Positions 53,973 through 55,753 of a stretch of DNA of 64,000 bases are shown one piece after another. Under the pieces are notes generated by a model. The model saw only the letters and a program-made list of their open reading frames with translations, did not search any database and was not told the DNA's origin. The stretch is from Nakamurella alba (GTDB taxonomy: Bacteria > Actinomycetota > Actinomycetes > Mycobacteriales > Nakamurellaceae). The DNA lies in NCBI RefSeq assembly GCF_009707545.1, contig NZ_WLYK01000008.1, forward strand, positions 124,001-188,000, written 5' to 3'. How positions within the stretch are numbered: position 1 is the stretch's first letter; every line of letters begins with the position of its first letter. Position numbers and translations under genes: made by a program.

Positions 53973-54521
53973 GTGATCACCACTCTTGACCCGACCTACC
54001 GGCCGGCCACCACCCTGTCGGACTCGCGGACATCGGTCGCCCCGCGTCCACCGTCCTTGTCGGGGAGGACGGTCGGCATCCTGATGAACCGGCTGGCCAA
54101 CTGCGAGGTGTTCTTCGACGCGCTGGCCGACCGGATCCGCGAGCTCACCGACGTCGCGGACGTGTTCATGGTGTGGAAGGACAGCCAGTCCGTGCCACCG
54201 ACACCGGAGCAGTGGGACGCGTTGATGGGCCGGGCGGACGTGGTGGTGACCGGGTTCGGTGGCTGCGGCAGCTGCAGCACCCGGAGCATGCGGGACGCGC
54301 TCGACGTCGAGGACCGCGGCGTCCCTGCCGTGTGCATCGTGCACGAGGCGCTGGTGCCGGCGGTCAGCGTGATCCGGACGATGGCGGGGCTGCCGGACTA
54401 CCGGATGGTGGTCGTCGGCTACCCGCACGGCCCGCTCGCGCCCTGGACCGCCGACGAGGCGCTCACCACCGCGAAAGAGGTGGCGCCACAGGTGATCGAC
54501 GCGCTGGTGGCCGCGCGATGA
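53973..54521 (+). CDS. UGSC-family protein, cysteine form
   Basis: 182 residues from GTG 53973, with AGAGGA upstream. After a variable 30-residue start, GRTVGILMNRLANCEVFFDALADRI leads to VVTGFGGCGSCSTRSMRDAL and then GVPAVCIVHEAL. The C98-G-S-C101 motif occupies the place of the U-G-S-C motif of a selenoprotein family, in which the first residue is selenocysteine; here the codon is TGC. The layout resembles the redox-active 'xGxC' region of glycine/proline reductase B subunits. Function is not established. It is the first gene of three that overlap or abut. Confidence 0.78.
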   Translation: MITTLDPTYRPATTLSDSRTSVAPRPPSLSGRTVGILMNRLANCEVFFDALADRIRELTDVADVFMVWKDSQSVPPTPEQWDALMGRADVVVTGFGGCGSCSTRSMRDALDVEDRGVPAVCIVHEALVPAVSVIRTMAGLPDYRMVVVGYPHGPLAPWTADEALTTAKEVAPQVIDALVAAR

Positions 54522-55501
54522 GCGTGCTGGCCGCCGACCGGGTGGACTTCGACAGCGAGGAGGCGGTCGCCGAGGGCTACGCCGAGCGCGGCTGGACCGA
54601 CGGCCTGCCGATCGTGCCGCCGACGGAGGGGCGGGTGCAGGCGATGCTGGCAGCGGCCGGCCTGGACCCGTCGGAGGTCCTCGGCGCCGTCCCGACCCGC
54701 AAGCTGACGGTCACCGCTGAGGCGGCGGCGATCAACGCGGTGATGGCGGGGTGCCGTCCGGAGTACTTCCCGGTGGTGGTCGCGGCGGTGCGGGCGCACC
54801 TGCACCCGAAGGGCAACTGCCACTCCACGACGGCCACCGTCTCCGGGGCCGCGCAGGTGGTGGTGGTCAACGGCCCGATCACCGGTGAGCTCGGGATCCA
54901 CGGCGGGCAGGCCTGTTTCGGACCGGGATTCCGGGCGAACGCCACCATCGGTCGGGCGCTGCGGCTGGTGATCCGCAACGTCTGCCTGGCTGTGCCCGGC
55001 GGGCTGGACCGGGCGTCGTTCAGCACCCCGATGCGCTACTCGTTCTGCTTCGCCGAGGACGAGACCTCGGGTTGGACCCCGCTGCACGTGCAGCGGGGAC
55101 TGGCCGACGGGGAGTCCGCCGTGACCGTGCTGTCGCTGATGTCGATGCTGCGCGCGTCGTCGTACTCCGAGGACCCGGCGGAACTGGTCGCGACCATCGC
55201 CCGCACGGCGCGGCGCGAGGGCGTCCCGCACGACGAGTTCCTCGGCACCGGAAGGAGCCTGGCGATCGTGGTCGGTCCGGAACACCGCCGCCGGTTCGCC
55301 GACGCCGGCTGGGACAAGCCGACCCTGCAGCAGCGGTTGTGGCCGCTGCTGACCGCTCCGACCACCGGCGCCGAGGACAACACCCTCGACCTGGCCGGGC
55401 CGGACAACATCCTGGTGATCACCGCCGGCGGCCCCGGCATGGCCGAGTCCTGGCTGATCACCCCGCACCTGTCGAACCCGATCACCGAGCGGGTGGTCTG
55501 A
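54518..55501 (+). CDS. Large partner protein of the UGSC system
   Basis: 327 residues from ATG 54518, overlapping the UGSC stop (ATGA). The N-terminus has YAERGWTDGLPIVPPTEGRVQAML. The centre has HPKGNCHSTTATVSGAAQVVVVNGPI, followed by GIHGGQACFGPGFRANATIGRAL and RNVCLAVPGGLDRASFSTP. The C-terminus has ILVITAGGPGMAESWLI. Several cysteines and histidines sit in Gly-rich loops that could bind a metal or a substrate. It is soluble, with no signal peptide. I do not know a biochemical role; tight linkage implies a complex with the UGSC protein. Confidence 0.75.
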   Translation: MSVLAADRVDFDSEEAVAEGYAERGWTDGLPIVPPTEGRVQAMLAAAGLDPSEVLGAVPTRKLTVTAEAAAINAVMAGCRPEYFPVVVAAVRAHLHPKGNCHSTTATVSGAAQVVVVNGPITGELGIHGGQACFGPGFRANATIGRALRLVIRNVCLAVPGGLDRASFSTPMRYSFCFAEDETSGWTPLHVQRGLADGESAVTVLSLMSMLRASSYSEDPAELVATIARTARREGVPHDEFLGTGRSLAIVVGPEHRRRFADAGWDKPTLQQRLWPLLTAPTTGAEDNTLDLAGPDNILVITAGGPGMAESWLITPHLSNPITERVV

Positions 55502-55753
55502 GTGTCCTCGCTGCTGGTGGCGCCGGTGCTGGAGGAACTGAACGGGATCGTCGCGGCCGACGGTGCGGTGCTGCGGCTGGTCACCGCCACGACGGAGAAG
55601 GTCGAGCTGGAACTGGATCTGACCAGCTCGTCGTGCCCGGAGTGTGTGGTGCCCAAGGAGCTGCTGCTCGGCATCCTCACCGACCGCCTCGCCCTGGCCG
55701 CTCCCGACGTCACCTCGGTCGACCTCCACGACCCCCGGGTCGACCCGGCCTGA
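55502..55753 (+). CDS. Small NifU-like CxxC protein
   Basis: 83 residues from GTG 55502, directly abutting the previous stop. The pattern VLEELNGIVAADGAVLRLVTAT, then LDLTSSSCPECVVPKELL with Cys45 and Cys48, looks like a NifU C-terminal-type scaffold domain. In that domain a Cys-x2-Cys pair at a helix start holds a transient Fe-S cluster, or acts as a thiol-disulfide pair. It might load a metal centre on, or reduce, the UGSC protein. The operon ends 26 bases before a convergent SDR gene. Confidence 0.7.
   Translation: MSSLLVAPVLEELNGIVAADGAVLRLVTATTEKVELELDLTSSSCPECVVPKELLLGILTDRLALAAPDVTSVDLHDPRVDPA

Follow-up and report, generated by a model that had tools for sequence, protein, structure and literature searches.

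Organization of the UGSC locus

The 64,000-nucleotide stretch of the Nakamurella alba genome analyzed here (contig NZ_WLYK01000008.1; hereafter, the window) carries three tightly packed genes on its forward strand, the first of which encodes a cysteine-containing member of the UGSC family. Previously, UGSC was found among the most abundant selenoproteins of the Global Ocean Sampling (GOS) data (PMC2398784), and a 2026 review counts it with selenoprotein families of largely uncharacterized function (PMC13188914). Passages of two further papers (PMC9312934, PMC7539508) add no function for it.

The UGSC-family gene (53973..54521; GTG start, TGA stop) encodes 182 amino acids. Its motif reads CGSC (54264..54275), in which Cys98 (TGC, 54264-54266) occupies the selenocysteine (Sec)/Cys site and Cys101 is also encoded by TGC (54273-54275). 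It overlaps by 4 bases a gene for a 327-residue protein lacking a Pfam or NCBIfam family, here called the partner (54518..55501; ATG start, TGA stop). On the base directly after the partner begins the gene for an 83-residue Nfu/NifU-like protein (55502..55753; GTG start, TGA stop) with a CPEC motif (Cys45 and Cys48, 55634..55645; codons read directly). This layout of three abutting or overlapping genes, given in a preliminary description of the window, was confirmed from the sequence and its open reading frames. The source genome (6.05-Mb assembly) has one UGSC gene.

The UGSC protein and its partner

The window UGSC protein scored 167 bits against PF24696 (cut-off 25) and 93.3 bits against the NCBI equivalog NF041046; since the latter is under the cut-off of 125, we regard it as a divergent Cys member. 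It agrees with the family in Pfam score, motif, length and conserved residues, but differs in having Cys for Sec, in its sub-cut-off equivalog score and in the attached Nfu-type gene. Among 29 divergent members, residues N39, C98, C101, D108 and G116 were invariant, and G31, K69, G99, S100, E113, P118 and P154 were kept at 90% or more. In the predicted structure (predicted local distance difference test, pLDDT, 89.7), the CxxC/UxxC motif sits at the start of a helix and flavodoxin-like alpha/beta proteins lead the matches, accounting for six of the eight Foldseek matches at E ≤0.001. A thioredoxin-like fold had been assumed in the 2008 GOS survey (PMC2398784). No thioredoxin-described chain was present among the matches listed (50 from Foldseek and 50 from VIA), although absence there is not proof.

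The partner had no match in Pfam or NCBIfam at E up to 1, and 34 diverse members yielded scattered single weak matches at most against the same collections. Homologues made up 7997 of the 7999 scored candidates. A block N-A-T-I-G-R-A and two cysteines were retained across phyla; of 87 copies, 96% keep Cys79 (54752..54754) and 98% keep Cys177 (55046..55048). Its model was of fair quality (pLDDT 80) and gave no clear match to a known fold, with faint resemblance to class I fumarase and cyanuric acid hydrolase; profile comparison with class I fumarase was negative (E 0.24, small alignment of six sequences). Searches of PDB sequences with the UGSC, partner and PrdB-like profiles gave no significant match, the best (E 0.032) being an artificial protein. 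Our literature searches returned no description of the partner, nor of a link between GrdB/PrdB and UGSC. The GOS paper reported a UGSC fusion to a domain named 'Unknown_1' (PMC2398784), which may be the partner or the Nfu-type domain.

Co-occurrence of UGSC and the partner

To examine how widely the two proteins occur together, one draw of 346 genomes from the phylum of the window's genome was searched with both. UGSC was over the cut-off in 26 genomes, the partner in 27 and both in 26; two sub-cut-off UGSC matches (G196 and G271) were excluded from this count. Of the 38 UGSC matches, counting fragments, 35 had a partner match on the same strand no more than 1 kb away; of the 40 partner matches, 35 had a UGSC match so placed.

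A second set of 81 loci consisted of the window locus and the best 80 of at least 566 partner relatives from a partner-profile scan of named genomes. These loci span about ten phyla, with record titles including Acidimicrobiia, Myxococcota, Deltaproteobacteria, Chloroflexi, Planctomycetota, Alpha- and Betaproteobacteria, NC10, Tectomicrobia and Binatota. Across the 81 loci there are 87 partner copies, of which 82 have a same-strand UGSC gene in the locus, 80 of them within 1 kb. The five copies without UGSC (L048, L049, L065, one of two in L068, and L076) include some that border contig ends or masked stretches. Two loci titled Bifidobacterium breve (L013 and L020) have a layout like that of the Candidatus Microthrix locus L014, and their titles look wrong.

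The partner also matched 24 plasmid records, and a UGSC profile match adjoined it in 16 of the 19 examined. Plasmids extend the pair to haloarchaea, Arthrobacter, Variovorax, Roseovarius and Paracoccus. On four haloarchaeal plasmids (L142, L150, L194 and L198), one Cys-form UGSC gene is flanked by two different partner copies. No relative was found in the viral contigs searched. Near home the distribution was patchy, with UGSC present in 7 of 61 genomes in a draw of close relatives, the window's own counted. UGSC and the partner thus occur together with few exceptions (26 of the 27 phylum genomes with a partner have both). The three genes do occur together elsewhere, so the refuting condition named in the preliminary description, that they would not, did not overturn its proposal.

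Sec, Cys and UAG forms

At the site corresponding to Cys98, 80 UGSC copies had TGA in 65 cases, a Cys codon in 14 and a masked position in one. The TGA copies read UGSC (63), UGAC (1) or USSC (1). The 42 bases past the TGA were predicted to fold more stably than dinucleotide shuffles (mean z -1.54 in 64 copies, one TGA copy on the other strand being omitted), compared with a mean z of -0.08 for the same region in the 14 Cys copies. The rank-test p of 4e-6 for this difference is too small because the copies are related.

Of 25 genomes searched, 22 had a tRNA-Sec of at least 66 bits. We relied on high scores only, since 5 of 14 control genomes also passed the curated cut-off of 47. The window's genome and the Cys-form genome of L013 had no tRNA-Sec above the cut-off, and the one in the L068 genome scored just 47 bits. 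Cys-form UGSC also occurs in genomes with strong tRNA-Sec, such as those of Dactylosporangium (L064 and L066) and G379, a member of the window's own genus. In G379 (L124 1492-1989, L131 2446-2943), which has tRNA-Sec, the motif is extended to Cys-Ala-Gly-Cys-Cys-Ser-Cys.

In another genome, G398, both UGSC copies have TAG at the Sec site and adjoin partners (L129 2073-2573 on the forward strand and L130 1793-2149 on the reverse strand; also L138); its tRNA-Sec has the anticodon CTA and was labeled tRNA-Pyl by ARAGORN. This agrees with the UAG-decoded UGSC genes already reported in Geodermatophilaceae (PMC5330540). One partner family therefore serves the UGA, UAG and Cys forms, which answers the earlier question of whether Sec and Cys versions share a partner. 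In G411 (L125 and L134; C9:37688-38437), about 155 bases separate the tRNA-Sec gene from a UGSC gene on the same strand, and a Paracoccus ferrooxidans plasmid has a selB gene (L147 11332-13107) at a distance of about 3.5 kb from a UGSC-partner pair of the TGA form.

The NifU-like protein and gene fusions

The window NifU-like protein matched PF01106 at E 0.058 and 14 bits (cut-off 27). Ten copies, including this one, were scanned: four were over the cut-off (best 36.4 bits), four matched below it and two had no match. With a profile seeded from the window protein and the fusions described below, 23 copies were found in 21 of the 81 loci, the window's included. All 23 contain CxxC; 21 lie within 100 bases of the partner or UGSC gene and two at 881 bases, and six are on the opposite strand. 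The small protein is like the Nfu/NifU C-terminal domain in length, in its CxxC and in the scores of some homologous copies, but the window copy itself is under the cut-off and the gene is genetically tied to UGSC and the partner. The cluster-scaffold-like helper suggested previously appears to be an Nfu-type protein, and it proved to be optional.

Four proteins (P0192, P0198, P0237 and P0232, one of them named from Acidimicrobiales) are partner-Nfu fusions, and a search for longer proteins with the fused Nfu domain returned three, including the query, all of them partner fusions. UGSC is fused to Nfu in Arthrobacter sp. ERGS1:01 and to the partner in Variovorax boronicumulans, where the motif is CGAC. 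Every pairing of the three proteins is therefore fused somewhere, a strong indication that the three act together.

Probable relationship to GrdB/PrdB

In an hhalign profile comparison (E 2.4e-5, probability 75%, range 75-78%), the C-terminal half of UGSC aligned with the Sec domain of GrdB/PrdB, with Cys98 on the Sec residue and Cys101 on the next Cys of PrdB-like proteins. The score was 37.7; none of 40 shuffles exceeded 18.2, and the highest-scoring of 39 control families reached 27.5. When the GrdB/PrdB profile was run against 10,781 frames, UGSC accounted for 17 of the top 20 non-self matches. Judged from these profiles, the C-terminal half of UGSC is probably a distant relative of the GrdB/PrdB Sec domain, and we regard the homology as moderate.

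Besides this similarity to GrdB/PrdB (PF07355, TIGR04483), both systems pair a subunit that carries Sec or Cys with a second one, and thioredoxin-reductase-like genes lie near some copies. On the other hand, the Sec half of UGSC is the only part matched, and many UGSC carriers come from probably oxic habitats, judging by record titles. The second subunits also differ: the partner gave a negative profile comparison with the pyruvoyl proprotein GrdE (PF09338; E 0.53, small alignment with three GrdE sequences), and being unrelated to GrdE it is not expected to carry a pyruvoyl group.

GrdB-like genes themselves were also encountered. PF07355 matched in 20 of 25 genomes searched, with some full-length GrdB. 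In a Tectomicrobia genome, a gene that resembles GrdB and contains an in-frame TGA (L072 5437-7440) is located upstream of the partner-UGSC pair, at a distance of about 3 kb; this genome also has three GrdE-like genes. Many UGSC-carrying genomes encode short proteins resembling PrdB (L092-L110), in which the match to GrdB stops at an in-frame TGA; no conserved neighbor of their genes was found within the 3.4-kb loci.

Gene neighborhood of the pair

The pathways neighboring the UGSC-partner pair vary by clade. Among 139 loci, CoA (coenzyme A) transferase III was found within 4 kb in 17, representing 17 of its 20 matches (post hoc p 0.007), and the tricarboxylate-binding protein TctC was within 4 kb in all seven of its loci (post hoc p 0.018). 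We also compared sets of near and far neighbors, each of 120 representatives (out of 165 and 331, respectively). The near set contained five CoA transferase III and four TctC proteins, and neither was among the 25 far families listed. Other families gave no indication of a single substrate pathway, with six near versus four far for luciferase-like proteins and four versus three for amidohydrolases. Because neighboring pathways differ by clade and the clustering of CoA transferase III and TctC is modest, the gene neighborhood does not reveal the substrate. The CoA-linked setting noted in the window thus has a counterpart near some copies, but it is not general.

Thioredoxin-reductase-like genes occur in 12 of the 139 loci (Actinobacteria, Alpha- and Betaproteobacteria, Chloroflexi and haloarchaea). 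Eleven are within 4 kb of the pair, compared with 56% expected by chance (p 0.011; one-sided, post hoc and uncorrected). In Arthrobacter the genes form a row, trxB-trxA-partner-UGSC/Nfu.

Proposed function

We suggest that UGSC, the partner and the Nfu-like protein form one thiol/selenol reductase, which likely works like the Sec subunit of glycine/proline reductase. Based on the sequence comparisons above, we would put the probability of this reading at about 0.45. The substrate would most likely be a small organic acid or acid derivative. In the model for PrdB, Sec attacks the alpha-carbon to give a selenoether, a PrdB cysteine cleaves this to a mixed selenide-sulfide, and re-reduction follows (PMC3091704). 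In the complex proposed here, the substrate would be held by the partner, and the thiolate of Cys98 (or the corresponding Sec) at the helix start would attack an activated carbon-heteroatom bond. Cys101 would then resolve the adduct, leaving a disulfide or selenylsulfide. The reduced state could be restored by thioredoxin and thioredoxin reductase, or by the Nfu-type CxxC protein of this operon, which in the window may act as a donor or have a cluster role. Of the earlier proposal of a reductase complex acting on a pathway intermediate, we thus keep the reductase as the best reading and give up the CoA-linked setting as a general feature.

Several observations weigh against this reading. The fold predicted for UGSC resembles many alpha/beta proteins. 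The reverse profile search was weak, with a best E of 0.14 and 4 of the top 20 matches, none of the 29 UGSC members compared with PF07355 matched it at E ≤5, two GrdB sequences (L091 and L072) have Ser or Gly at the Cys101 position, and the comparison of the partner with GrdE was negative, as described above. Thioredoxin reductase is near the pair in just 11 of 139 loci, and no thioredoxin system protein was found among the seven window neighbors scanned. One phylum genome (G183) has partners but no UGSC over the cut-off, and a Haladaptatus plasmid (L195) has a partner with no UGSC within 6 kb. Plasmids of Vibrio europaeus and Sporomusa termitida (L145 6344-8029, L146 6320-8044) encode long partner proteins next to aconitase X plus DUF126. 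Their N-terminal domain looks UGSC-like by eye and was undetected by the UGSC profile; with Met and Ser apparently in place of both motif cysteines, these relatives could not use thiol chemistry at that site. A universal redox role for the family therefore appears to be disfavored.

Three other explanations were considered. UGSC might be a general oxidoreductase of the thiol-disulfide or peroxide-handling kind, with no carbon substrate dedicated to it, as the motif at a helix start, the thioredoxin-like fold assumed in the GOS survey (PMC2398784) and the trxB or trxB-trxA neighbors of some loci would suggest. We consider this unlikely: a near-constant 327-residue partner with its own conserved core and the CoA transferase and TctC neighbors point to a substrate, and the leading structural matches are flavodoxin-like. 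The chances are poorer still for an Fe-S or sulfur/selenium module, in which the Nfu-type protein would give the partner a cluster (at Cys79 and Cys177) and UGSC would be a thiol donor. Nfu-type domains beside or fused to both proteins and the strong conservation of the two partner cysteines argue for such a module, but the Nfu-type gene is found in only 21 of 81 loci, and UGSC and the partner stay paired without it. Similarly improbable, in our opinion, is a lyase, dehydratase or isomerase whose UGSC domain is mainly structural or substrate-binding; the fused Vibrio and Sporomusa relatives beside aconitase X and the faint fold resemblances noted above for the partner speak in its favor.

If the thiol/selenol reductase reading is correct, a wider and more tentative proposal is that the UGSC-partner pair represents a large unrecognized class of Sec/Cys reductases. 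Such a class would take GrdB/PrdB-type nucleophilic reductive cleavage beyond the anaerobic fermentation of amino acids and into organisms that live in oxic habitats. A new substrate-binding subunit would replace the pyruvoyl protein, and the electrons would come from thioredoxin or an Nfu-type protein. The near-constant partner, the optional Fe-S-type helper, the fusions and the probable link to the GrdB/PrdB Sec domain turn an orphan family into a testable enzyme complex. With the core pair present across many bacterial phyla and archaea, and with natural Cys-form UGSC proteins that can be produced in ordinary hosts, the job of this family is now open to testing.

Other neighboring genes

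The seven scanned neighbors in the window encode two acyl-CoA dehydrogenases, an SDR protein, an enoyl-CoA hydratase, an opposing SDR protein, an acyl-CoA ligase and an APH-type protein. Phosphosulfolactate synthase was considered as a conserved neighbor of the pair and rejected, as it was found in 2 of 139 loci by sequence search. Genes like it lie near the pair in a betaproteobacterium (L069 11020-11871), in Arthrobacter (L144 4713-5501) and, by annotation only, in Natrinema (L141 3907-4374).
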